A DNA stretch of 64,000 nt from Terrabacter sp. Root85. GTDB lineage: Bacteria; Actinomycetota; Actinomycetes; Actinomycetales; Dermatophilaceae. The stretch is from positions 193,418-257,417 of the forward strand of contig NZ_LMIW01000013.1 of the NCBI RefSeq assembly GCF_001429185.1, written 5' to 3'. Shown here piece after piece: positions 27,549 through 40,020 of the stretch. Numbering within the stretch: position 1 is the stretch's first letter; each line of letters opens with the position of its first letter. A model generated the notes under the pieces. That model had not been told where the DNA came from and did not search any database. It was given only the letters and a program-made list of their open reading frames with translations. The position numbers and the translations under genes were made by a program.

Positions 27549-28295
27549 GTGAGCGAGCACCCCACCGAAGCGACGACGCCGACCCGCGAGGCCGGCCCCG
27601 ACCGGCGCAAGGAGCACGTCGTGCCCGACCTGCCGCCCGGCGTCGCGCCCGCGCGCGTCCGCACCTTCGTGCGCCGGGGCCGGCTGTCGTCCCTGACCAA
27701 GGACCGCGTCGAGCGGCTCGCGCCCGCGCGCTCCGTGCCAGACGGGCCCTTCGAGCCCGCTGCCGCGTTCGGGCGCACCGCCCCCGTCGTGCTCGAGATC
27801 GGCTGCGGCCACGGCCACGCCGCGATCGCGTATGCCGCCGCGTTCCCCGAGCGCGACATCCTCGCCATGGACGTCCACACCCCGGGACTCGCCCGGATGC
27901 TCGCCGATGCCGACGAGGCGGGGGTGCCGAACCTGCGTGTCGAGATCGGCGACGCCGTGCTCTTCCTCGAGGAGCGGGTCACCGATGCCACGTTCGACGC
28001 CGTCCACCTCTTCTTCCCCGACCCGTGGCGCAAGCAGAAGCACACGAAGCGGCGCTTCGTCAGCCCCGCCAACCTCGACCTGCTCGCGCGCGTGCTCAAG
28101 CCGCGCGGCCACGTGCTCATCGCCACCGACCAGGACTTCTACGCCGAGCACGCGCTCGCCGAGGTCGCGGCACACCCGCGCTTCGAGGCCCATCGCATCG
28201 ACCGGCCGCAGTGGCGGCCACGGGACGGCTTCGAGGCCAAGGGGATCGCGGCCGGGCGCACGATCAATGAGCTGCGCCTGGACCTCTTGCCCTAG
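27549..28295 (+). CDS. trmB: tRNA (guanine-N7-)-methyltransferase
   Basis: A 248-residue SAM-dependent methyltransferase that forms m7G46 in tRNA. It has the SAM-binding motif VLEIGCGHGHAAIAYA near residue 80 and the TrmB motif HLFFPDPWRKQKHTKRR near 150, followed by VLKPRGHVLIATDQ. I chose the GTG at 27549 because TACGAT (27537-27542) ends six bases before it, a leaderless promoter; a GTG at 27519 is in frame but lies upstream of that promoter. A palindromic repeat mosaic and tRNA-Pro follow. Confidence 0.93.
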   Translation: MSEHPTEATTPTREAGPDRRKEHVVPDLPPGVAPARVRTFVRRGRLSSLTKDRVERLAPARSVPDGPFEPAAAFGRTAPVVLEIGCGHGHAAIAYAAAFPERDILAMDVHTPGLARMLADADEAGVPNLRVEIGDAVLFLEERVTDATFDAVHLFFPDPWRKQKHTKRRFVSPANLDLLARVLKPRGHVLIATDQDFYAEHALAEVAAHPRFEAHRIDRPQWRPRDGFEAKGIAAGRTINELRLDLLP

Positions 28296-28390
28296 CCGTG
28301 CGACCGTCAGCCGGGCAGGTCGAGGAGTTCCTTCGGCGCCTGGTGCCGGATGATCTCCACGACCTTCGGACCGAGCCGCGTCGCTGCCTC

Positions 28391-28473
28391 TCGGGGAGAC
28401 AGGACGCCGGCCTCGCTGCCGCGGCTCGTTCCTCGCCGCGCCTGCTCGGCCTCCCGGCATCCTGTCTCCCCGA
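28391..28473. repeat. large inverted repeat, 20-bp arms
   Basis: Arms at 28391-28410 and 28454-28473 are inverted copies with 19 of 20 bases paired, around a GC-rich spacer. The arm TCGGGGAGACAGGA differs by one base from the 3' end of tRNA-Pro just downstream (28535-28548). It is one part of a three-copy mosaic; see the adjacent entry and findings. Confidence 0.85.
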
Positions 28474-28549
28474 CGCAGCGAAGCGGGGAAGGAGGGCCGA
28501 CTGCGTCGGCTGCTTCCTTCCCCGCTTCGCGAAGTCGGGGTGACAGGAT
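28459..28549. repeat. 91-bp palindrome with 35-bp arms that includes the tRNA-Pro 3' end
   Basis: The arms 28459-28493 (plus) and 28549-28515 (minus) match at 31 of 35 positions, and the 21-base centre itself contains GCCGAC/GTCGGC. The right arm covers the last 15 bases of tRNA-Pro, so the hairpin and the tRNA acceptor/T-arm are mutually exclusive foldings of the same RNA. It may act as the tRNA terminator or be the trace of an element that targeted the tRNA. Confidence 0.85.
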
Positions 28550-28608
28550 TTGAACCTGCGGCCCTTGCGTCCCAAACGCAATGCGCTACCAAGCTGCGCC
28601 ACACCCCG
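28535..28608 (-). tRNA. tRNA-Pro (anticodon TGG)
   Basis: A 74-base cloverleaf. The acceptor CGGGGTG pairs with CACCCCG, the anticodon stem TGCGT/ACGCA encloses TTTGGGA with anticodon TGG, and the T-arm carries GGTTCAAATCC. No CCA is encoded. A TACGAT hexamer (28619-28624, minus strand) precedes it. The 3' end is part of a long palindrome. Confidence 0.93.
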
Positions 28609-28741
28609 TGGCGTCGGAATCGTAGCCGACAACCGGCGGGCGAACCGACCTCTTCCCACGCGGCGCGGGCGGGTCGATTTCTGTGCATCGGGCGCGAACC
28701 AGTAGGCTGACGCCTCGGATCGCCGGCAAGACCGGTGCCCC

Positions 28742-28812
28742 GCGGGCGTAGCTCAATGGTAGAGCCTCAGTCTTCCAAACTGATCACGCGAGTTCGATTC
28801 TCGTCGCCCGCT
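28742..28812 (+). tRNA. tRNA-Gly (anticodon TCC)
   Basis: A 71-base cloverleaf with acceptor GCGGGCG/CGCCCGC, D-arm GTAGCTCAATGGTAGAGC, anticodon loop CTTCCAA (TCC) and T-arm AGTTCGATTCT. The next three bases are CCA, so the 3' CCA is encoded. A TAGGCT hexamer at 28703-28708 is a candidate -10. Confidence 0.95.
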
Positions 28813-28860
28813 CCAAAACTCCCTTGGCGTCGGCACGCCCCGCTTCCTAGCGTGGGTCGC

Positions 28861-29157
28861 ATGTTCCGCCCAGACCTGCAAGACGCCCTCCGCGACCGCG
28901 ACGCCGTCCTCCGCTCGTTCCTCGCCGCCGACGGCACCCTGACGAGCATCCCCACGAAGATCCGCAAGCGCCTCGTCGTCCTCGACCTGCTGTCGCAGGA
29001 GTTCGAGCCCGGCGAGCGCTACGACGAGAGCCAGGTCAACAACCGCCTGCGCGCCTTCCACCCCGACGTCGCGGCCCTGCGCCGCTACCTCGTCGAGGAG
29101 GGCTTCCTCGACCGGGCCGACGGGTTCTACTGGCGCAGCGGCGGGACCGTCGACTGA
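28861..29157 (+). CDS. DUF2087 domain protein
   Basis: A 98-residue protein that is essentially one DUF2087 domain: KIRKRLVVLDLLSQEFEPGERY, then SQVNNRLRAFHPDVAALRRYL and a C-terminal FYWRSGG. The domain is often fused to or found beside ArsR/MarR-type regulators and may bind DNA or protein, but its function is not established. TAGCGT ends seven bases before the ATG, so the message is probably leaderless. Confidence 0.88.
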   Translation: MFRPDLQDALRDRDAVLRSFLAADGTLTSIPTKIRKRLVVLDLLSQEFEPGERYDESQVNNRLRAFHPDVAALRRYLVEEGFLDRADGFYWRSGGTVD

Positions 29158-29205
29158 CTGCGCCGGTCCCTCAGCCCGCGCCACACGGCATACGTCAGTT
29201 CGGGC

Positions 29206-29721
29206 TCAGCGGAAGCCGAGCGCCTCGCTGAGCCAGCTCTCGGCGCCGTCGGCCTCGAGACCGGCCTCGACGGCGGCAGCCGTGCGCGGCGACGGCCACC
29301 CGTGCACCCAGAAGAGCGCGAGCCCGCCCGGCAGCGCGATGAGCAGGGTCAGCCACGAGTGCGGGGTGAAGACGAACGAGCACGCGAACGCCACGAGCAC
29401 GGGGGCCTCGGCCAGCGCGGTGCGCAGGGTCGTCGTCGACGTGAAGTAGCGCAGGCTCGTCGTCTCCGCGTTCTCGCGCGGCAGGCCGTGCGGGAGCGCC
29501 GGAACGGCATACCCGACGTAGCGGATCAGGGTGGCCGACCCGACGAGCGTGGCAAGCACGATGCCGACGGCCCACGGTGACGGCAGGGGCGCCGACGGGT
29601 CGACGAGGATCCGCACGGCACTGAGCATCAGGGCTCCCATGCCGACCGCGACCGACACCATCTGGATCGGGCGCAGGGCGGCGCTCTCGGGGGAGGCGAA
29701 GGGGCCGGGAGGGGTGCTCAT
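29206..29721 (-). CDS. small membrane protein of unknown function
   Basis: A 171-residue protein with four predicted membrane helices (approximately residues 20-40, 50-70, 105-122 and 125-143, for example LVAFACSFVFTPHSW) and an acidic cytosolic tail ending in ALGFR. I recognise no domain. The ATG at 29721 is preceded by GGGAG. It is divergent from the trigger-factor gene, and its short upstream region is shared with the tig promoter. Confidence 0.75.
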   Translation of the reverse strand: MSTPPGPFASPESAALRPIQMVSVAVGMGALMLSAVRILVDPSAPLPSPWAVGIVLATLVGSATLIRYVGYAVPALPHGLPRENAETTSLRYFTSTTTLRTALAEAPVLVAFACSFVFTPHSWLTLLIALPGGLALFWVHGWPSPRTAAAVEAGLEADGAESWLSEALGFR

Positions 29722-29765
29722 GGCTCCCGAGCATAGGCGCGGGGGCCCGGCGGACGATCCGCGCA

Positions 29766-29795
29766 TTTAGCCATCCGCCGCGCGGCCTATAGCAT
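29766..29795 (+). promoter_or_regulatory. probable tig promoter
   Basis: TTTAGC (29766-29771) and TAGCAT (29790-29795) with an 18-base spacer, or overlapping TATAGC with 16. They sit in an unusually A/T-rich stretch about 70 bases before the trigger-factor start. Confidence 0.5.
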
Positions 29796-29862
29796 GGTGC
29801 GCTGGCCCGTCCGTTCACCGTCGACGACCACGTCGGCACCAGCCCCTATGGAGTACCCCGCA

Positions 29863-31206
29863 GTGAAGAGTGCGCTCGAGACCCTCAGCCCGACCCGGGT
29901 CAAGATGACCGTCGAGGTCCCGTTCGAGGAGCTCAAGCCGAGCCTCGACGCGGCCATCAAGCACATCGGTGAGCACATCCAGGTGCCCGGCTTCCGCAAG
30001 GGCAAGGTGCCGGCCCGCATCATCGAGCAGCGCGTCGGCCGTGCGGCCGTCCTCGAGGAGGCCGTCAACAACGCCCTTCCGACGTTCTACGGCCAGGCCC
30101 TCGAGGAGAACGAGGTTCGCCCGCTCGGCCAGCCCGAGATCACCGACCTCCAGGTGCCCGCGACCGACGGCGAGGACTTCGTCTTCACGGCCGAGGTCGA
30201 CAAGCGTCCCGAGATCGACCTGCCCGACTTCAGCGACATCGAGCTGACCGTCGACGAGGCCAAGGTCGAGGACGAGGCCGTCGAGCAGCGCCTCACCGAC
30301 CTCCGTGCCCGCTTCGGCACGCTCAAGGGCGTCGACCGCGCCGTCCAGGACGGCGACTTCGTCTCCATCGACCTGTCCGCCGAGATCGACGGCGAGCAGA
30401 TCGACGAGGTCACCGGTGTCTCCTACGAGGTCGGCAGCAAGAACATGCTCGAGGGCCTCGACGAGGCGCTCGTCGGCATGACGGCCGACGAGACCAAGCA
30501 GTTCACCGCCCCCCTCGCCGGTGGCGACCAGGAGGGCCAGGACGCCAGCTGCACCGTGACCGTCACCGCGGTCAAGGAGCGCGAGCTGCCCGAGCTCGAC
30601 GACGAGTTCGCCCAGCTGGCCTCGGAGTTCGACACGCTCGACGAGCTCAAGGCCGACCTCACGGCCAAGGCCGAGGTCGACGCCAAGTTCGCCCAGGGCG
30701 TCGCGGCCCGCGACCAGCTCCTCGAGGCCATCCTCGAGAAGATCGAGGTCCCGATCCCCGAGAGCATCGTCGAGGCCGAGGTGCACAGCCACCTCGAGGG
30801 CGAGGGTCGCCTCGAGGACGACGAGCACCGTGCCGAGGTCGGCGAGAGCACCCGCAAGGGCCTCAAGACCCAGCTCGTCCTCGACGCCATCGCCGAGAAG
30901 GAAGAGGTCAAGGTCGAGCAGCAGGAGCTCATCGAGTTCCTCGTCATGAGCTCGCAGCAGTACGGCATGGACCCCAACCAGTTCGCCCAGTCGCTCGACC
31001 AGGAGGGTCAGATCCCCGCCATGGTCGCCGAGGTCGCCCGCCGCAAGGCGCTCGCCACGGTCCTCGAGAAGGTCTCCGTCAAGGACACCGCCGGCAACGT
31101 CATCGACCTCAACGAGGCCGTTCCCGGCACCGAGGGCGACGAGGACGAGGCTGTCGACGCCGCCGAGGGCACCGACGAGGCGAAGGCCGAGAAGGCCGAC
31201 GCCTGA
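29863..31206 (+). CDS. tig: trigger factor, ribosome-associated chaperone
   Basis: A 447-residue chaperone and peptidyl-prolyl isomerase acting on nascent chains at the ribosome exit. The N-terminal ribosome-binding domain has VPGFRKGKVPARIIEQ (residues 43-58, the GFRxGxxP signature); the FKBP-like domain begins GDFVSIDLSAEIDG near 165; a long helical C-terminal domain and an acidic tail (about 35 residues, largely D/E/A) complete it. The GTG at 29863 gives the usual MKSALETLSPTRV start. It heads the tig-clpP1-clpP2-clpX locus and ends at a strong terminator. Confidence 0.96.
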   Translation: MKSALETLSPTRVKMTVEVPFEELKPSLDAAIKHIGEHIQVPGFRKGKVPARIIEQRVGRAAVLEEAVNNALPTFYGQALEENEVRPLGQPEITDLQVPATDGEDFVFTAEVDKRPEIDLPDFSDIELTVDEAKVEDEAVEQRLTDLRARFGTLKGVDRAVQDGDFVSIDLSAEIDGEQIDEVTGVSYEVGSKNMLEGLDEALVGMTADETKQFTAPLAGGDQEGQDASCTVTVTAVKERELPELDDEFAQLASEFDTLDELKADLTAKAEVDAKFAQGVAARDQLLEAILEKIEVPIPESIVEAEVHSHLEGEGRLEDDEHRAEVGESTRKGLKTQLVLDAIAEKEEVKVEQQELIEFLVMSSQQYGMDPNQFAQSLDQEGQIPAMVAEVARRKALATVLEKVSVKDTAGNVIDLNEAVPGTEGDEDEAVDAAEGTDEAKAEKADA

Positions 31207-31226
31207 CCGTCACCACCACGAACGCC

Positions 31227-31260
31227 GTGAGGCCGGCTCCCGCTCGGGAGCCGGCCTCAC
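31227..31260 (+). terminator. hairpin terminator after tig
   Basis: A perfect 15-bp stem (GTGAGGCCGGCTCCC with its complement) and a four-base loop, 20 bases after the stop codon. It shares the GTGAGGCC base with the 14660-14691 terminator. Confidence 0.88.
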
Positions 31261-31384
31261 GCCGTGTCCGGGTCCCACCTACGGGGTGGCCCCGCTGGTG
31301 TCCCCGCGGTTGTCCACCCGGTGGCCCGGGTACGTGGCCTACGGTCGCCGTCCGGCGGCACGCACCTCGACGAGGGAGCCAGAG

Positions 31385-31687
31385 ATGAGCAGCACCGACG
31401 AGTCGGCCGCAGGCATGGCGGACACCGACATCAACAGCACCGACGCCGACGGCACCAACGTCCCCGGGCACGACGACGGCAGCGACGGGCCCGCGCCGCA
31501 GGGCCAGGGCGACGACGCCGACCGCGGCAACCTCGACGGCAGCAACGCCGTCGACGAGCCGCGGGACCGCTCGCTCGACCAGGCCGGCGGCAACGGCTCC
31601 TTCGACGACGCGTCCGAGCAGACCGGCCCCGAGAGCGACGCCTCCGACCTCGGCGACTCGGGCCAGGACAACGGCCTGACCGACTGA
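31385..31687 (+). CDS. small acidic, disordered protein of unknown function
   Basis: A 100-residue protein composed largely of D, S, G, N and E with no hydrophobic core, for example STDADGTNVPGHDDGSDGP. It has a GAGGGAG element seven bases before the ATG and consistent codon bias, so it is probably translated. No domain is recognised; it could be a hydration- or stress-related disordered protein. It lies between the tig terminator and the clpP1 promoter. Confidence 0.55.
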   Translation: MSSTDESAAGMADTDINSTDADGTNVPGHDDGSDGPAPQGQGDDADRGNLDGSNAVDEPRDRSLDQAGGNGSFDDASEQTGPESDASDLGDSGQDNGLTD

Positions 31688-31769
31688 CCGCGCTCGACCC
31701 ACCGACCCCGCCGGACGGCATACGACCGGTGGGGTCCGTGCGTGTGGTTGCGCCCCTCCCGCTCAGGTT

Positions 31770-31787
31770 TGTGCGCTCACGGCGAAC
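31770..31787 (+). promoter_or_regulatory. ClgR-type box upstream of clpP1
   Basis: CGC-T-CAC-G-GCG flanked on the right by AAC fits the actinobacterial ClgR consensus (CGCYNANRGCGWWS) at every specified position; the left flank deviates by one base. It lies about 40 bases upstream of a TAGGGT hexamer (31827-31832), the normal place for an activator. ClgR is the known activator of clp genes in this phylum. Confidence 0.8.
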
Positions 31788-31900
31788 ACGGCGCGGTTCG
31801 GGAAATCTGGCCGAGGGGTCGGGCGTTAGGGTCAGTGACGAGCCAGCCAGGCGCCACATCCCGTGGCGAGAGGCTGGACCACTTCGACGATGGAGACACG

Positions 31901-32536
31901 GTGATTTCGGAGACCTCCGCCAACGGCAACGGCATGCCGGGTGGTCTGGACGACCACATCTACAACCGCCTGCTCAAGGAGCGGATCATCTTCCTCGGGT
32001 CCGACGTGCGCGACGACAACGCGAACGCCATCGCCGCGCAGCTGCTGCTGCTCTCGGCCGAGGACCCTGAGAAGGACATCTGGCTCTACATCAACAGCCC
32101 CGGCGGTTCGATCTCCGCCGGCATGGCCATCTTCGACACGATGAACTGGATCCCCAACGACGTCGCCACCGTCGCGATGGGCATGGCCGCCTCGATGGGC
32201 CAGTTCCTGCTGTCGGCCGGCACGCAGGGCAAGCGCTATGCCACGCCCCACGCCCGCGTCATGATGCACCAGCCCTCGGGCGGCATCGGCGGCACCGCCA
32301 CCGACATCAAGATCCAGGCCGAGCAGATGCTCTACGTCAAGAAGCAGATGGCGCAGCTCATCGCCGAGCACACCGGGCAGACCGTCGAGCAGATCGAGAA
32401 GGACTCCGACCGCGACCGCTGGTTCAGCGCGGAGGAGGCCAAGGAGTACGGCTTCGTCGACCACGTGTTCAGCCGCTCCGACCAGGCGGTCGAGGGCAAG
32501 GGTGTCGGCCAGGCCGACGCCAAGGCCGAGAACTGA
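31901..32536 (+). CDS. clpP1: ATP-dependent Clp protease proteolytic subunit ClpP1
   Basis: A 211-residue serine protease subunit. The catalytic triad is complete: S98 in GMAASMGQ, H123 in MMHQPSGG and D172 in DRDRWFSA; the oxyanion strand [12 protein letters not shown] precedes it. With ClpP2 it forms the mixed 14-mer typical of actinobacteria, docking to ClpX or ClpC. GTG start with GGAGA upstream. Same ribosome-binding context (TGGAGACACG) as clpP2, suggesting matched translation. Regulated through the ClgR box. Confidence 0.96.
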
Positions 32537-32566
32537 CCGCGGCCTGACCAGGACTTGGAGACACGC

Positions 32567-33220
32567 ATGAACATCGAACCCACCAACCGCCTCGCGGTGG
32601 CCCAGCCCTCGAGCCGCTACATCCTGCCGCAGTTCGAGGAGCGCACCTCCTACGGCATGAAGCGGTCCGACCCCTACAACAAGCTCTTCGAGGACCGCAT
32701 CATCTTCCTCGGCGTGCAGGTCGACGACGCGTCGGCCGACGACATCATCGCCCAGCTGCTCGTGCTGGAGTCGCTCGATCCCGACCGCGACATCCTCATG
32801 TACATCAACAGCCCGGGTGGCTCGTTCACGGCCATGACGGCCATCTACGACACGATGCAGTTCGTCCGGCCCGACATCCAGACGTTCGTCATCGGACAGG
32901 CCGCCTCGGCCGCCGCCGTGCTCCTCGGCGCCGGTGCACCGGGCAAGCGCTTCGCCCTGCCGAACGCCCGCATCCTCATCCACCAGCCGGCGCTCTCGGG
33001 CGGCGACTACGGCCAGGCCTCGGACATCGAGATCCAGGCCAACGAGGTGCTGCGCATGCGGACGTGGCTCGAGGACACCCTCGCGCACCACACGGGGCGC
33101 ACGTCCGAGCAGGTCCGCAGCGACATCGAGCGCGACAAGATCCTGTCGTCCGAGGACGCCAAGACCTACGGCCTCATCGACGAGGTCCTCGCCTCGCGCA
33201 AGGCCTCGCTCGAGGACTGA
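32567..33220 (+). CDS. clpP2: ATP-dependent Clp protease proteolytic subunit ClpP2
   Basis: A 217-residue second ClpP subunit, 30 bases after clpP1 and in the same operon. The triad is S114 (GQAASAAA), H139 ([10 protein letters not shown]) and D190 (ERDKILS). The N-terminus is longer than ClpP1 and carries [15 protein letters not shown], usual for ClpP2. The ATG at 32567 is preceded by TTGGAGACACG, near-identical to the clpP1 site; a TTG twelve bases earlier is less likely. Essential with ClpP1 in related genera. Confidence 0.96.
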
Positions 33221-33334
33221 CCTCCCGCTCGTCACGAGCACGTGTGCCGCTGGGCCGGGCTCCGCCGGGACCCGGCCCTCGGCGTACCTGCTTGGATGTT
33301 CGGTGAACCTGGTGTCGAGCGTGGAGGTGCGGTC

Positions 33335-33589
33335 ATGGCGAGTGCGGAGTTCGAGCAGGCTGTCGAGTCGGTCAAGGGCCTGACGACCGACCCCGGCAAC
33401 GAGGTCAAGCTGCGGCTCTACGGCCTCTTCAAGCAGGCGACGGCCGGCGACGTGAGCGGGTCGCGTCCCGGCTTCACCAACCCGGTCGGGCGCGCGAAGT
33501 ACGACGCGTGGGCCAAGCTCTCGGGCACGGCCCCGGAGGCGGCGCAGGAGCAGTACGTCGCGATCGTCCGCGACCTCACGTCCGCCTGA
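33335..33589 (+). CDS. acyl-CoA-binding protein
   Basis: An 84-residue four-helix acyl-CoA-binding protein. The signature LRLYGLFKQATAGDVSGSRPG (residues 28-48) and AKYDAWAKLSG match the ACBP ligand-binding motif, including the KQAT and W/K acyl-CoA contacts. ACBPs bind and buffer long-chain acyl-CoA; they are much commoner in eukaryotes but occur in some actinobacteria. GGAGGTG lies before the ATG. It follows clpP2 and precedes the palindromic repeat pair. Confidence 0.93.
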   Translation: MASAEFEQAVESVKGLTTDPGNEVKLRLYGLFKQATAGDVSGSRPGFTNPVGRAKYDAWAKLSGTAPEAAQEQYVAIVRDLTSA

Positions 33590-33598
33590 CCCGCCCTC

Positions 33599-33662
33599 GT
33601 CCCGCCGTGGCTGGATCTCTGCGGCGGACCGGGCGCTGCGGCCGCGATCATCCCACCACGGC
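33599..33662. repeat. 64-bp palindromic element, left copy
   Basis: The element begins GTCCCGCCGTGG and ends with CCACGGC; outer stem CCGTGG/CCACGG, inner stem GCGGC/GCCGC. The right copy at 34649-34712 has exactly the same length and lies exactly 1050 bp away. Aligned without gaps, 43 of 64 bases agree; the first 12 are identical and the ends are better conserved than the middle. See findings. Confidence 0.8.
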
Positions 33663-33724
33663 TGGGGTCTGGAGGCCTGTGGACGACTTCTGCGAACGCC
33701 GTCCGGACCGCGCAACGATCGGGC

Positions 33725-34642
33725 ATGCCGACTGCACAGCCGTTCCGCCGAGGTCAGCGGCCTCCTGGCGTCACCGACTGGCACTTGCGCACGTCACGGT
33801 TTCGACGGCTCTTCCACGACGTCTACGTCGACCGAGAGGCCGAGCTCACGCCGCTCCTGCTGGCGAGGGGAGCCCTCCTCGTCGCGCCGGACGCAACGGT
33901 CTCGCACCACAGCGCAGCGCGCCTGTGGGGAGCGGTCGTTCCGGACGACGGCTTCGTGCACCTGACCTGTCCTACTCGCCGTCCGCAGGTCGAGGGCATC
34001 CGCACCCATCGGTGCGGCCGCCCGAAGCGGGCGACGAGGTGGCGTGGCCTACCCGTCACGACCCCGGTCCAGACGTTCCTCGACCTCGCCGCTGTGCTCA
34101 GCCTCGTCGACCTGGTCGTGCTCGGCGACTCGCTCGTGCGGCGGAAGCGAGTGACGGTCGACCTGCTCGTCGAGGCAGCGACCGCCCATCGAGGGACGGG
34201 TGGGCGGCTGGCTCGCAAGGCTGCACGGTTGGTGCGCGCCGATGTCGACTCGGCCATGGAGTCGCGCCTTCGCATGCTCATGGTGCTGTCGGGCCTGCCC
34301 GAACCCGTGGTCAACCACAAGATCCACTGGCCCCACGGTGAGGTGCGGTTCCGTCTCGACCTCAGCTATCCGGACGACGGCCTCGTCATCGAGTACGACG
34401 GGTGGCAGCAGGTGGACTCGCAGACGCAGTGGGGCTCCGACCGCGACCGGCGCGAGTGGCTCGACGGCAACGACTGGCGCATCGTCGTCGTCATCGCCAA
34501 GGACCTCCACCGCACACCGGCAGCGACCCTGTCCAGGATTCGCGCGGCGATGCGGGGCCGTGGCATGCCGGTCCCGCCGGTCGACGACGAGTGGCGGCGG
34601 CACTTCCCGAGCACGTCGGAGGACCTGCGGGAGCCGGCATGA
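33725..34642 (+). CDS. DUF559/AbiEi-like protein with PD-(D/E)XK endonuclease-type domain
   Basis: A 305-residue protein. Residues 1-150 look like the AbiEi-type antitoxin/winged-helix region (SHHSAARLWGA near 61). The C-terminal half matches the DUF559/Vsr-like endonuclease fold: E180 (MESRLRML), D212 (RLDLSYPD) and the E223-x-D225 pair (VIEYDGWQQ), then DRDRREWLDGNDWR. It is therefore likely to be a DNA-cleaving or nicking enzyme. No partner AbiEii toxin lies nearby. It is the only gene between the two 64-bp palindromic elements, and its start sits in a sequence resembling the right element's inner part. Codon use is slightly more mixed than in the clp genes. Confidence 0.8.
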   Translation: MPTAQPFRRGQRPPGVTDWHLRTSRFRRLFHDVYVDREAELTPLLLARGALLVAPDATVSHHSAARLWGAVVPDDGFVHLTCPTRRPQVEGIRTHRCGRPKRATRWRGLPVTTPVQTFLDLAAVLSLVDLVVLGDSLVRRKRVTVDLLVEAATAHRGTGGRLARKAARLVRADVDSAMESRLRMLMVLSGLPEPVVNHKIHWPHGEVRFRLDLSYPDDGLVIEYDGWQQVDSQTQWGSDRDRREWLDGNDWRIVVVIAKDLHRTPAATLSRIRAAMRGRGMPVPPVDDEWRRHFPSTSEDLREPA

Positions 34643-34648
34643 GCGTGG

Positions 34649-34712
34649 GTCCCGCCGTGGCGGGATGTTTGCGGTCGGGGCGTCCGCTTGACCGCAACGA
34701 TCCAGCCACGGC
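34649..34712. repeat. 64-bp palindromic element, right copy
   Basis: Starts 7 bases after the DUF559 stop. Stronger hairpin than the left copy: outer stem CCGTGGC/GCCACGG and inner stem TGCGGTC/GACCGCA around a 13-base loop. It could also act as a terminator for the gene, though the matching left copy lies upstream of it, where a terminator for this gene would serve no purpose. Confidence 0.8.
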
Positions 34713-34761
34713 GCGACCGGCGAGGCGGCACGTCGGGAGCTCGCGCCCTACGCTGCGCGTC

Positions 34762-35412
34762 ATGAGGACGTATGTCGTGCGGCTGGTCGCGCTCGTCGGT
34801 CTCGTGGTCGTCGGGTTGGTGGCGACCCCCTCGTCCGCGCTCGCCTCGTGCGCGGGCCGCGAGCCCGCCCAGGTGGTCGCGGACTCGGACGTCGTGCTCA
34901 CCGGGCGCGTCACCGCGGTGGACGACTCGGGTGGTGACCACAACCCGCGTCCGGTCGCCTGGACCATTGCGGTCAGCGCGGTCCACCGGGGCAGTGCGCC
35001 GCAGACCACGCACGTCCGGGCCTTGACCGAGAGTCCCGACCTCGTGAGCTCGGGCGGGAGCTACGTCTTCGCCCTCGTCGAGTCCGGCGGCGAGCTCACG
35101 GGCACCGGCTGCCAGGACGTCGTCGCCACCGGCACCGATGCTGCCGGAGCCCTCATGGCTGCCGCCGGTCCGGCCCGGGCGCCGGCTGCGGACGGCGCCG
35201 TGCTCCCCGGTGCTGCGGCTGTCGACGTGGGAGGCGGAGGGATGTCGCTGACGACGATGCTCGTCATCGCGCTCGTGGGGCTGCTCGTCGTGACGTTCGG
35301 GGGTCTCGCGCTGGCGATCGGTCTCGGGCTCCTCACCCGTCGGCGGCGTGGCCGGACCGATGGCAGCGACGATGCGCCACAGCGCGATTCGAATGGAACG
35401 CCGTTCAAGTGA
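34762..35412 (+). CDS. exported, membrane-anchored protein with TIMP/NTR-like N-terminal segment
   Basis: A 216-residue protein. It has a signal peptide (VVRLVALVGLVVVGLVATPSSALAS), then a CAGREPAQVVADSDVVLTGRV segment similar to the NTR/TIMP-type fold, with a second cysteine (TGCQDVV) about 95 residues later likely forming a disulfide. A Pro/Ala-rich stretch leads to a C-terminal membrane helix (TMLVIALVGLLVVTFGGLALAIG) and a basic tail, so the domain faces outside. Function unknown. TACGCT ends seven bases before the ATG. Confidence 0.75.
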   Translation: MRTYVVRLVALVGLVVVGLVATPSSALASCAGREPAQVVADSDVVLTGRVTAVDDSGGDHNPRPVAWTIAVSAVHRGSAPQTTHVRALTESPDLVSSGGSYVFALVESGGELTGTGCQDVVATGTDAAGALMAAAGPARAPAADGAVLPGAAAVDVGGGGMSLTTMLVIALVGLLVVTFGGLALAIGLGLLTRRRRGRTDGSDDAPQRDSNGTPFK

Positions 35413-35424
35413 CAGCCTCGTCGT

Positions 35425-35445
35425 TTGTCCGCCATCAGCGGACAA
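35425..35445 (+). terminator. hairpin terminator before clpX
   Basis: Perfect 8-bp stem TTGTCCGC/GCGGACAA with a five-base loop, 12 bases after the preceding stop. It separates clpX from the upstream membrane-protein gene. Confidence 0.7.
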
Positions 35446-35560
35446 GCGGCGTTGCGCGAGCGGGAGGGGGCCACCTCGTCGTCTAATAGGAGTCGGCCCC
35501 TAGGTTGGGGCCTGCCGGGTGCACCCCAGCGTTCGGCGCCGACGAACCAGGAGCGAATCG

Positions 35561-36838
<1,278 letters not shown>

Positions 36839-36884
36839 CCCTCATGACCGCCCGCGCCGCGTCCGCGTGAACGGAGGCTGACCC

Positions 36885-37523
36885 GTGGTCGCTCCCTTCC
36901 GGCTCGTGGCCGGGGACCACGCGCCCGTGCAGCAGACGAGCACGACGTGCGGGTCGGCCTCGTTGACCGTCGCCCGCATGCTCGCCAACCCGATGTTCGC
37001 GCAGTGGATCCGGGACGGCATACGCAAGGATGCGCGTGACGGGGACGTGCCGGACGGTGGCACCGAGGCCCAGCGCTTCGCCGCCTACGAGCAGGTCGTC
37101 GCGTCCCGCACCAATGCCGTGGTCGGCGCGGGACGCCGGCTGCAGCTGCCGTGGCCGCGGGCGCTCGGCACGCCCCCGTGGGGCGCGCTGAACGAGCTCG
37201 AGTACGGCGCCGCCGATCCCGAGGCCGACTACGACCTCGCGTGGTTCCGCCAGCGCGGACGCGTCGGGCTCCGGCACACGTATGCCGCCCTCCGCGCCCG
37301 GGTGCGTCCCGGCCGTCCAGCGCTCCTCTACGTCGGCAACGCCTGGGCGCCGCGGCACGTCGTGCTCGTCCTGCCGCCGACGGGGGAGCAGGAGCTCGAC
37401 GTCTACGAGCCGTCGGTCGGGCGCGTCGTCGACCTCCCGGAGCACGCCTTCGTCGAGCGCCGTCTCGCCATCGCCGGCTGGGACGTGCCCTGGGCCGCCG
37501 TCTGGGCCGATCCCCACCCCTGA
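36885..37523 (+). CDS. papain-like (C39-like) cysteine protease-fold protein, function unknown
   Basis: A 212-residue protein with the layout of a C39-like cysteine peptidase: QQTSTTCGSASLTVARML with C22 and an upstream glutamine, then RHVVLVLPP near 160 (candidate His) and the following VYEPSVGRV (candidate Asn/Asp position). The cysteine-histidine spacing is plausible, but I cannot confirm the full triad. No signal peptide is present, so it is cytoplasmic or exported by another route. GTG start with GGAGG upstream. It may be co-transcribed with clpX (46-base gap) and ends at the expanded terminator. Confidence 0.6.
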   Translation: MVAPFRLVAGDHAPVQQTSTTCGSASLTVARMLANPMFAQWIRDGIRKDARDGDVPDGGTEAQRFAAYEQVVASRTNAVVGAGRRLQLPWPRALGTPPWGALNELEYGAADPEADYDLAWFRQRGRVGLRHTYAALRARVRPGRPALLYVGNAWAPRHVVLVLPPTGEQELDVYEPSVGRVVDLPEHAFVERRLAIAGWDVPWAAVWADPHP

Positions 37524-37528
37524 CACGG

Positions 37529-37564
37529 CGAGAGGCCACCGTTCGCATGAACGGTGGCCTCTCG
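37529..37564 (+). terminator. perfect 16-bp hairpin terminator, descending arm repeated downstream
   Basis: Stem CGAGAGGCCACCGTTC with its exact complement and a GCAT loop, beginning five bases after the stop codon. The last nine bases of the descending arm belong to the first unit of the six-fold 11-bp repeat at 37556-37621. Confidence 0.88.
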
Positions 37565-37621
37565 ATGGCCTCTCGATGGCCTCTCGATGGCCTCTCGATG
37601 GCCTCTCGATGGCCTCTCGAT
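37556..37621. repeat. six perfect 11-bp tandem repeats (GGCCTCTCGAT)
   Basis: Six identical, uninterrupted 11-bp units. The first is the descending arm of the terminator at 37529-37564, so five further copies of that arm follow it. Each extra copy can pair with the CGAGAGGCC part of the ascending arm. The array lies between two convergent genes and looks like slippage of a terminator arm. Confidence 0.97.
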
Positions 37622-37633
37622 GGGTCGAGCAGG

Positions 37634-39181
37634 TCAGCCCATGTGGGCCGGGGCCGCGCCGTCGGTCGCGAGCTCCTCGTGTCGCACGTGGAGCGCGACG
37701 AGGGTGACGACGCCCGCGACGGCGATCATGATCGCCGCGACGAGGTAGGCGCGGCTGGCGCCGTAGGTGAACGCCTCGTCGGCGATCATCTTCTGGGCCG
37801 CGGCCAGCTGCTCCTTGGAGGGAGCCGGGCCACCCTGCGGCAGCTTCGCGGTCAGCTCGGCGACCTTGTCGCCCATGTTGTTGACGAAGATCGTGCTCAG
37901 CGTCGCGAGGCCGAGCGTGCCGCCGACCTGCTGCATCGTGTTGAGCACGGCCGAGGCCACCGAGGAGTCCTCGTGCGCGACGCCGTGGACGGCCGTCAGG
38001 GTGAGCGGCACGAAGATCAGGCCCAGGCCGAAGGCGAGGACGACGATCCACGGCAGCAGGTCGGCGGCATACGTGCTCTGCGGCGTCAGGTGGGTGAAGC
38101 CCCACATGCCGAGCGCAGCGAAGCCCGCGCCCGCGCCGGAGATCCAGCGGGGGTCGACCTTGGCGATGAGGAACGACGCGAGCTGCGCGGCGACGACGAT
38201 GCCGACCGAGAAGGGCAGGAACGCGAGGCCCGTCTTGAGCGGCGAGTAGCCGAGGATCGTCTGGATGTAGATGCCGAGGAAGTAGAACATCGCGAACATG
38301 CCGGCGCCAACGATGAGCATGACGAAGTAGGACGTGCCGCGGGTCCGGTCGCCGGGGATGCGCATCGGCAGGAGCGGGTGCTTGACCCGCGTCTCGATGA
38401 CGACGAAGGCGACGAGCAGGACGACACCGATGGCGAGGTAGGTGACCGTCGTGGCGTCACTCCACGAGGTGCTCGCGGCGTGGGTCAGGCCGTAGACGAG
38501 CGAGGAGAGGCCGGCGATCGAGGTGATGGCGCCGGGGATGTCGAGCGTGCCGCCGCCGTCCTCGGACTCGGTGAGGATGCGGAGGGCGAGGATCGCGACG
38601 ACGATGCCGATCGGCAGGTTGATGAAGAAGTTCCAGCGCCAGTCGATCTCGGTCAGCGCACCGCCGAGGATGAGGCCGATGGCGGCGCCGGCACCGGACA
38701 TGGCGGCGAAGACGCCCATGGCGCGGTTGCGCTCCTTGCCGGCCGGGAAGGTCGTCGTGATGAGCGCCAGCGCGTTGGGGGCGGCGAGGGCGCCACCGAG
38801 GCCCTGGACGGCGCGGGCGGCGAGCATCATCGCCTCGTTCTGGGCCACGCCGGCGACGAGCGAGGCCAGCGTGAACAGCACGATGCCCCAGAAGAAGAGC
38901 CGACGCCGGCCGTAGAGGTCACCGAGGCGACCGCCGAGCAGCAGCACGCCACCGAAGGCGAGCGTGTAGATGGTGATGACCCACTGGAGGTTCGCCTGGC
39001 TGAAGCCGAGGTCGGTCTCGATGTGGGGCAGCGCGATGTTCACGATGGTGCCGTCGAGCACGATCATGAGCTGGGCGGCGCAGATGACGAAGAGCGCCAG
39101 GCCGAGGCGCTTCGGCGGGGTGTCGTGGGAGGTGAAGTCGCTCTGGGGCTCGTCCACCTGATCGACCGTGGTCGAAGACAT
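37634..39181 (-). CDS. MFS multidrug efflux transporter, DHA2 (EmrB/QacA) family
   Basis: A 515-residue 14-helix drug/proton antiporter. It begins with helix 1 containing ICAAQLMIVLDGTIVNIALP (the DHA2 motif with the helix-1 aspartate) and carries motif A GGRLGDLYGRRRLF after helix 2 and the motif C region in helix 5. ATG at 39181 with AGAGGAA upstream. It lies 58 bases after the TetR gene on the same strand, and the TetR operator probably controls the pair. Substrates are unknown but typically include lipophilic drugs and dyes. Confidence 0.92.
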   Translation of the reverse strand: MSSTTVDQVDEPQSDFTSHDTPPKRLGLALFVICAAQLMIVLDGTIVNIALPHIETDLGFSQANLQWVITIYTLAFGGVLLLGGRLGDLYGRRRLFFWGIVLFTLASLVAGVAQNEAMMLAARAVQGLGGALAAPNALALITTTFPAGKERNRAMGVFAAMSGAGAAIGLILGGALTEIDWRWNFFINLPIGIVVAILALRILTESEDGGGTLDIPGAITSIAGLSSLVYGLTHAASTSWSDATTVTYLAIGVVLLVAFVVIETRVKHPLLPMRIPGDRTRGTSYFVMLIVGAGMFAMFYFLGIYIQTILGYSPLKTGLAFLPFSVGIVVAAQLASFLIAKVDPRWISGAGAGFAALGMWGFTHLTPQSTYAADLLPWIVVLAFGLGLIFVPLTLTAVHGVAHEDSSVASAVLNTMQQVGGTLGLATLSTIFVNNMGDKVAELTAKLPQGGPAPSKEQLAAAQKMIADEAFTYGASRAYLVAAIMIAVAGVVTLVALHVRHEELATDGAAPAHMG

Positions 39182-39239
39182 GGGTGTTCCTCTCGAAGGC
39201 ATGCAGGTGTGGTGGTGGGTCGCCCCGACGCAGGCCGGC

Positions 39240-39884
39240 TCAGCGAGTGCTGGGCGCGGGCGCGAGGGTGGCGGCGCAGGCCGGGAGGACGACGCTGTCC
39301 ACGAACTCGGCGATGCGGTCCGGCCCGGGTCGACGTCCGGAGAGCAGTGCCTCATGGATCGACAGGGACGGGAGGATCATCAGCAGGGTGTCGAGGTCGG
39401 CGTCGGCGCCGACCTCACCGCGCTCTCGGGCGTGCTCGAAGATGGTGCGGGTGGCCTCGATCTTCGGGGCCAGGAACCGCTCGTGGATGCCGCGCGCCAG
39501 CTCTGGCTCGCGGTGGATGACGGGGAGCAGCGCCCCCCACGTGCCGATGACGACCTCGTCGTCGAGGCCTCCGTCGGCGCAGGCCTGGGCGAGCAGGTCG
39601 CCGCGCAGGCTCCCGGTGTGGGGGTCCTGCTCGGCGGGGCAGTCGATGAAGAGCCCGACGGCGTCGATGACGAGGTCGCGCTTGTGCGGCCAGCGTCGGT
39701 AGAGCGTCGCCTTGGACGCTCGTGCGGCCGTGGCTACGGCGTCGAACGTGAGCCGGTCGTAGCCGCTCTCGCGCAGGACGTCGATCGCGGCCTCGAGGAT
39801 CTCGACCTCGCGGTCGCCGGCGACACGCGGACGGCTCGCGTGTGCGGCGTCCGTCGTGCTCGCGCTGGTCGTGCTCATGCTCAC
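39240..39884 (-). CDS. TetR-family repressor
   Basis: A 214-residue regulator with an N-terminal helix-turn-helix (ILEAAIDVLRESGYDRLTF, then VATAARASKATLYRRWPHKRDL) and a ligand-binding helical domain. It is the first gene of an operon with the DHA2 transporter, the typical arrangement for induced efflux. The GTG at 39884 and the ATG at 39878 are both possible. A perfect palindrome 17 bases upstream is the likely site of autorepression. Confidence 0.9.
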   Translation of the reverse strand: MSMSTTSASTTDAAHASRPRVAGDREVEILEAAIDVLRESGYDRLTFDAVATAARASKATLYRRWPHKRDLVIDAVGLFIDCPAEQDPHTGSLRGDLLAQACADGGLDDEVVIGTWGALLPVIHREPELARGIHERFLAPKIEATRTIFEHARERGEVGADADLDTLLMILPSLSIHEALLSGRRPGPDRIAEFVDSVVLPACAATLAPAPSTR

Positions 39885-39901
39885 CCCGGTCCCACCCCGA
39901 C

Positions 39902-39922
39902 GAAACGAAACTGTTTCGTTTC
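39902..39922. promoter_or_regulatory. perfect 21-bp palindrome, TetR operator
   Basis: GAAACGAAAC, one base, then GTTTCGTTTC: a perfect 10-1-10 inverted repeat, strikingly A/T-rich for this genome. It overlaps an A/T-rich candidate -10 region on the minus strand just upstream of the TetR start, so binding would block transcription of repressor and pump. Confidence 0.85.
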
Positions 39923-40020
39923 ATCATAGAGTAGATCGGGACGGGCCTGTTGGCAAACCACGTGTCGAGCCTTCGGTGCGTCGACCTGGCCGGCCGTCCC
40001 GCCCCGACGGACGGAACGGC

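Follow-up and report, generated by a model that had tools for sequence, protein, structure and literature searches.

An AbiEi-like/Vsr-like nuclease gene of Terrabacter and the short repeats that flank it, a candidate enzyme-and-repeat partnership

The window analyzed here is a stretch of 64,000 nucleotides from Terrabacter sp. Root85, and its clp locus raises the question of why a gene for a nuclease-like protein should lie between two 64-bp palindromic elements, and whether gene and elements belong together. An initial annotation had proposed that they form a palindrome-recognizing cassette inserted in the clp locus. The features concerned are as follows (positions in the window).

33335-33589, plus strand: acyl-CoA-binding-protein gene, the neighbor 5' of the block, which marks the conserved site
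33599-33662, no strand assigned: left element, an inverted pair of a short unit (plus unit 33604-33624, minus unit 33642-33662)
33725-34642, plus strand: 305-residue nuclease gene, with residues ~1-175 AbiEi-like and ~176-305 Vsr/EDxHD-like nuclease (limits approximate)
34259-34399, plus strand: codons of the conserved acidic residues from E179 to D225, with D212 and E223 between them (from the alignment)
34649-34712, no strand assigned: right element, an inverted pair of the same unit (plus unit 34654-34674, minus unit 34692-34712)
34762-35412, plus strand: secreted-protein-like gene before clpX, without a Pfam or NCBIfam match

The two 64-bp elements, 1050 bp apart, were re-measured at exactly the coordinates first assigned to them, and the 43 of 64 identical bases initially counted between them were obtained again on recomputation. 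For comparison, 20,000 random pairs of 64-mers from the window had a mean identity of 18.9 bases (sd 4.1) and a maximum of 35. The leading block described as 12 identical bases is indeed identical, but is 13 bases long. Each element is built from a unit of approximately 21-25 bp, arranged as an inverted pair, whose clean form is GCCGTGGCNGGATNNTTGCGG. The half-unit pattern had six matches in the window with up to three mismatches, versus 0.43 expected, and with up to two mismatches its matches were exactly the four half-units of both elements. Within the window, the sequence most like the left element was the reverse complement of the right element (50 of 64 bases).

The elements had also been described as hairpin-forming with a conserved stem plan. 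This description suited the right element, whose fold z against shuffles was -5.5 on the plus and -5.0 on the minus strand, but hardly the left element, which at -1.5 and -1.9 folded just slightly better than its shuffles; the right element is therefore the only clearly unusual hairpin (the folded 64-base stretches, from 33601 and 34651, begin two bases after the element starts). Across loci, the mean fold z of the units was -0.75 versus -0.17 in controls, and values below -1.5 were found at 7 of 49 loci versus 1 of 49 controls, so that a conserved hairpin structure is not a general feature. A hairpin as the general function of the units was rejected because folding was hardly better than in shuffles. 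The terminator scan of positions 28000-40000 found three sites versus 2.7 expected, and a terminator reading of the 64-bp elements was rejected as none of these sites fell on them. Rfam models at gathering scores identified two tRNAs in the window and nothing else.

The protein encoded between the elements scored 25.0 bits with the MTES_1575 model, below the Pfam cut-off of 38.2, and its score of 12 bits with DUF559 was likewise too low (cut-off 20.6). However, of the 50 aligned members including the window protein, 49 matched MTES_1575 at E ≤ 0.01, 38 matched DUF559, five AbiEi_1 and two AbiEi_4. The Vsr, DUF559 and EDxHD folds are akin to one another. AbiEi-type models of a defense library matched residues 21-125 of the window protein (E 1.4e-10). 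An AlphaFold2 model made with the 50 sequences as input had a mean pLDDT of 94.8, and its top Foldseek match was the AbiEi antitoxin 6y8q (probability 1.00, with a weak E of 5.6e-3), followed as second distinct match by the homing endonuclease I-Bth0305I domain 3r3p (probability 0.98, E 0.06); the DUF559 structure 3hrl ranked lower (E 2.0). There were no fold matches to solved structures at E ≤ 0.001, and searching the solved structures by sequence gave no match either. In an alignment of 23 sequences E179, D212, E223 and D225 were invariant, and in the alignment of 50 sequences E179 and E223 were still invariant while D212 and D225 were each present in at least 90%. The last three of these residues had been named correctly in the initial annotation, but the first is E179 and not E180. 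Relatives at E ≤ 1e-30 were identified in 100 of the 186 genomes of the family that were searched.

Most relatives of the gene were flanked by repeats of their own. The flanks were compared by the best local match score between the upstream and the downstream flank of a gene, in a first set of 60 loci, mostly the best-scoring of the relatives listed together with same-genus loci, to which the window was added. With 600-bp flanks, the 56 loci for which both flanks were available had a median score of 54.5, versus 26 for 600 cross-locus pairs, and 24 of the 56 exceeded the 99% level of the cross-locus pairs. Control flanks taken 1.8-2.4 kb away had a median of 27 (55 loci), and none exceeded that level. 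With 500-bp flanks, the controls were 122 ORFs taken from the loci themselves; 48 of 57 loci scored above the 95% level of these controls and 33 of the 57 above their maximum. The result was comparable in a second set, drawn from a named genome collection as the best 80 of 288 relatives, 70 of which had both flanks and 33 of which were new: 27 of these 33 fresh loci beat the 95% level of 337 control ORFs and 19 beat their maximum. The repeat sequence varied from gene to gene, and the arrays lay downstream of the gene as well, not upstream alone. A check suggested at the outset, whether relatives carry the same gene without the palindromes, gave a divided answer. Most relatives were flanked, but 9 of 57 and 6 of 33 did not reach the 95% control level and lacked clear two-sided repeats, and flanking repeats are thus frequent and not universal.

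Repeats were also found around more distant genes. Same-genus DUF559-type genes only ~30% identical to the window gene often had arrays of their own (6 of 10 scored above 31 with 500-bp flanks, and 9 of 10 scored at least 36 with 600-bp flanks after the gene limits were roughly adjusted). Among classical DUF559 genes from several phyla, 12 of 23 beat the maximum of 84 control ORFs, where the 12 include one locus (L233) that is a coding duplication and one (L223) that depends on the start codon chosen. These loci came from a plasmid collection, from which 24 of 41 records were retrieved and one fusion was set aside, and we regard their repeats as a lead to a wider reach beyond the window family. 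The records H6, H7, H12 and H13 of that collection are chromosome-sized (E. coli, 4.8-4.9 Mb; N. gonorrhoeae, 2.2 Mb). The classical genes at L226, L230, L228, L234, L300 and L302 are single and lie amid metabolic operons (suf, pnt, hpa, paa), and the gene at L233 has a diverged partial copy on one side and the end of a carboxyl-transferase gene on the other, an arrangement like a long target duplication. A motif of the CGTC type was found only ~2 kb from one gene among 14 classical DUF559 loci, and a direct link of these genes to CGTC-tagged REPs was rejected since the motif was absent beside the 14 genes. Within the window itself, positions 37555-37623 hold a perfect tandem array of TGGCCTCTCGA (11 bp, 6.3 copies) beside a short palindrome, between the gene at 36885-37523 and an opposite-strand MFS-transporter-like gene; the array is similar to a portion of the GTCGAGAGGCC units found with distant DUF559 paralogues.

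The unit followed the protein. A convincing unit could be defined at 48 of 94 loci, excluding the window, whose own unit was under the score limit, and two loci were taken to share a unit when at least 20 of 24 bases agreed. The unit was common to all 16 ordered pairs with at least 75% protein identity, to 6 of 22 at 65-75%, to 2 of 36 at 60-65% and to none of 2182 below 60%. The 16 pairs represent three gene groups, 12 of them coming from L096, L101, L105 and L202, and both genomic flanks were also common to 27 of 30 pairs at 70% identity or above and to 36 of 121 at 60-70%. Since the gene groups are few and the genomic flanks mostly common, the sharing of units is partly plain common descent. 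The genes at L076 and L098 (76% identical), however, have no flanking gene in common and yet have units that are similar by eye, which suggests that this gene relocated together with its repeats.

The spacing of the units was near-constant. Among neighboring units of the same orientation up to 130 bp apart, 129 of 174 were spaced at 51-52 bp (72 at 51 and 57 at 52), a count that also contains ten spacings of 16 bp, all from L081 and L166, where the consensus is without letters and masked N runs are the apparent cause. Spacings of 50-53 bp were seen in only 49 of 100 loci. The same distance emerged independently of any unit definition: of at most 200 flanks, 108 had a strong direct repeat, and in about 69 of these the lag was 51 or 52, as it was in none of 20 control segments. 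The distant relatives had mostly 32-bp spacings; L006 had 22 bp, the upstream flanks of L016 and L023 had 42 bp, and 31, 34 or 50 bp was seen a few times. A third unit type, of genome G149, had same-strand spacings of 41-43, 50-53 and 62-63 bp, with two of 29 at 36 bp. Opposed units also lay at fixed distances: window-type head-to-head pairs measured 59 bp across their 21-mers in 10 of 10 cases, a unit type from Flexivirga had 66 bp between arm ends in 21 of 21 two-armed elements (with a further arm pairing at 99), and opposite-strand neighbors in G149 were 41-43 bp apart, start to start, in 20 of 21 cases and head to head in all 21. Steps near 10.5 bp suggest that the units may be sites on one face of duplex DNA. 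Among the 29 G149 spacings no helical period was singled out, with R of 0.68-0.79 for each of the eight trial periods between 9.5 and 11.5.

Copies of the units also occurred away from the gene, and mostly where a cognate gene was present (the counts for all three unit types include the copies flanking the genes). With up to two mismatches, the window unit had 6 matches in its own genome, 10 in G003, 8 in G006 and 16 in G047 (Humibacillus), versus 0-2 in 16 other genomes searched. With up to one mismatch, at least four matches were found in 4 of 186 genomes, the same four of the gene lineage, which carry a gene 72-100% identical or, in G006, decayed; eight further genomes had one match each, and a reversed-pattern control had one match over all 186. 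The Flexivirga unit (up to one mismatch) was confined to 2 of 186 genomes, with 19 and 16 matches. The nuclease genes of these two genomes are 90% identical to each other. From each of the other three Flexivirga species one gene was compared; these genes are 38-53% identical to that pair, and the two whose flanks were inspected (G039 and G041) have repeats other than the Flexivirga unit. The third unit (up to three mismatches) was present in 94 copies at 44 places in G149, together with its cognate gene L099, and was absent from 19 other genomes, including ten from the same genus. Palindromes occurring genome-wide and unlinked to such genes had been named as evidence against a cassette; dispersed copies do exist, but mostly in genomes with the cognate gene, as is the case for REPs.

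In its own genome the window unit had only one place besides the gene. A third full 57-bp palindrome (L002 1501-1557; C15:116835) has no nuclease gene adjoining and lies between the ends of luciferase-like and ABC-permease-like genes, as named from their translations. No polymorphic or clean new insertion was seen. Of the dispersed Flexivirga places in one species, 9 of 9 recurred in its sister species, one of these through a match on a single flank. A Flexivirga element present in one genome and absent from another was compared in one case, and there the flanks differed, by eye, over about 40 bp.

The history of the gene at the clp locus was less mobile than the idea of an inserted cassette implied. 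The gene order is clpP2, acyl-CoA-binding-protein gene, left element, nuclease gene, right element, secreted-protein-like gene and clpX; the interval between clpP2 and clpX was given correctly in the initial annotation, but the direct neighbors of the block are the acyl-CoA-binding and secreted-protein-like genes. Seven relatives of 59-81% identity occupy the same site, two of them inverted, and two relatives at 58% identity are located away from it (G050:C82 and G051:C134). Among the 16 of 23 searched genomes in which the neighboring acyl-CoA-binding gene allowed a survey of the site, the nuclease gene was co-directional in G000, G002, G003, G047, G049 and G051 and inverted in G048 and G107, remained as a C-terminal piece in G050 and as a decayed gene in G006, and was not seen at the site in G001, G004, G005, G007, G008 and G178. 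As the site is occupied, inverted, decayed or lost across relatives, the sequence comparisons indicate that the window gene is an old resident of the clp site, with turnover and inversion. Recent mobility of the gene at this site was rejected in view of the same-site relatives of 59-81% identity, and a recent insertion there is not supported; the comparison with empty sites that had been recommended was run and did not find a clean empty site with a target duplication. The clp-site units of G000-type genomes are unlike those of G002-type genomes, and the gene-less G007 and G004 seemingly keep, by eye, one unit of the G002 type. The gene-less interval of G178 (L249) seemingly has, again by eye, another small repeat family that is GTTCGAGG-like, and Serinicoccus-type relatives (L096, L101, L105, L106, L202; ~47% identity) lie near clpP-clpX in another interval.

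The repeats are thus gene-specific and two-sided, have a fixed geometry, co-vary with the protein and are dispersed in a gene-tied manner. Based on these observations, we somewhat favor the reading that the nuclease and its private family of short sites are a two-part element, in which the units are bound by their own enzyme, which would help in copying or retaining them. The binding, cutting and copying or mobilization of units by the nuclease would proceed as follows. The AbiEi-like N-terminal half would bind a cognate unit of ~25 bp in duplex DNA, with two molecules occupying either an inverted pair (here 57-59 bp) or units set approximately whole helical turns apart. The Vsr/EDxHD-like C-terminal nuclease might then nick or cut at bound units, and repair of the cuts could copy units beside existing ones and, more rarely, into new intergenic places. 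Such repair-driven copying would keep the array matched to its enzyme. The two top distinct fold matches suit the proposal, AbiEi (6y8q) being a protein that binds inverted repeats and bends DNA (PMC7319586) and I-Bth0305I (3r3p) one that dimerizes on a target of nearly 60 bp (PMC3943268).

The main rival to this proposal is pure autoregulation, in which the arrays are operators only and the AbiEi-like half represses its own gene and a few others, the nuclease half serving, for example, in phage defense and the units spreading by ordinary duplication and drift. We consider this unlikely, but several observations suit it. AbiEi binds co-operatively to inverted repeats of its own promoter and bends the DNA, according to the available part of the source (PMC7319586), the N-terminal half matches AbiEi in sequence (residues 21-125) and has 6y8q as top fold match, the gene is a long resident of one site, and spacings near whole helical turns (51-52; 32, 22 and 42; 41-43, 50-53 and 62-63 bp) suit a duplex-bound protein. 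However, arrays lie downstream of the gene as well, a total of up to 94 copies dispersed over 44 places is large for autoregulation, and the two 36-bp spacings among the 29 same-strand G149 spacings are off the series. The N-terminal match to AbiEi-type models of a defense library would also suit a defense nuclease held on the arrays, which would be its self-label or decoy, and released to cut invading DNA, and Vsr-like REase domains are present in conflict systems (PMC3710099, in the portion available). This we regard as improbable, as the two scanned neighbors of the window gene include no partner toxin or modification gene and the dispersed copies are left unexplained.

The units might instead belong to another mobile element, such as a RAYT, with the nuclease gene as a passenger. 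Their layout is like that of REP/REPIN populations, which consist of short repeats in inverted pairs or direct clusters (PMC3116915, as far as its available text describes them), but the unit type tracks the identity of the nuclease protein, and searched same-genus genomes with other versions of the gene are without the unit, which makes a passenger role very improbable. The weak folding of the left element, just slightly better than shuffles, is what chance terminators or common base composition could produce; the controls for element pattern, flanks, dispersal and spacing, and the lack of a terminator-like site at the elements, leave this explanation next to no credit, in agreement with the initial view that the elements are not chance terminators.

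The two-part element remains our preferred reading, and the initial idea of a palindrome-recognizing cassette with a REP/RAYT outline has been strengthened because relatives are flanked, the repeat follows the gene and dispersal is mostly with the cognate gene, but neither a general hairpin structure nor a recent insertion at the clp locus is supported. What is of significance is a gene family with its own repeat types, near-constant spacing and gene-bound dispersal. If the reading is correct, each enzyme and its site form a pair for direct tests, the family offers DNA specificities already matched to their proteins in nature, and repeat families left unexplained by RAYT gain a possible source. 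A broader proposal, which we put forward tentatively and think rather doubtful, is that these genes constitute a REP system of a second kind, independent of the first. Solo nucleases of the AbiEi/Vsr/DUF559 type would then be a very large superfamily in Actinobacteria, and perhaps also in Proteobacteria, Deinococcus and Cyanobacteria, with each member generating and maintaining a population of short spaced repeats of its own. If true, this would account for many of the intergenic palindromes in bacteria for which a mobilizer is not known.

Each half of the window protein resembles a known system in part. Like the antitoxin of AbiE type IV toxin-antitoxin systems, its N-terminal half has an AbiEi fold. 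Unlike AbiEi, it is fused to a nuclease, its repeats lie on both sides of the gene and elsewhere, and no AbiEii (DUF1814) toxin gene was present in the two scanned neighbors. The nuclease half resembles, weakly, the fold of EDxHD I-Bth0305I and Vsr, and I-Bth0305I is described as a dimer on a target of nearly 60 bp in the part of PMC3943268 available. In contrast to a homing endonuclease, the gene here is free-standing and flanked by putative targets, none of which it interrupts. Most aligned members match DUF559 and REase_MTES_1575, whereas the window protein itself falls under both Pfam cut-offs, and a link of this nuclease family to REP-like repeats was not found in the literature listed, which covers few subscription journals.

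The closest likeness is to REP/REPIN sequences and their RAYT (TnpA_REP, "REPtrons"), which are likewise short, mostly intergenic repeats in inverted pairs or clusters, dispersed in the genome. In those systems the cognate gene is flanked by the same type of repeat, and repeat and enzyme co-vary, as stated in the available parts of PMC3116915 and PMC3733652. The gene described here is similarly flanked by its own repeat type in the window and in most relatives, and its repeats are dispersed in the genome, with three unit types here. The differences are that the enzyme, by Pfam and fold, is an AbiEi-like/Vsr-like fusion and not an HUH Y1 tyrosine transposase, that the window unit is without a GTAG or CGTC tag, that spacing is near-constant and that hairpin stability is not general. 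By analogy, a mechanism like that of REP/RAYT, run by an unrelated enzyme, appears the best reading of this locus, and it suggests that partnerships of this sort between an enzyme and its repeat have been overlooked as a class.
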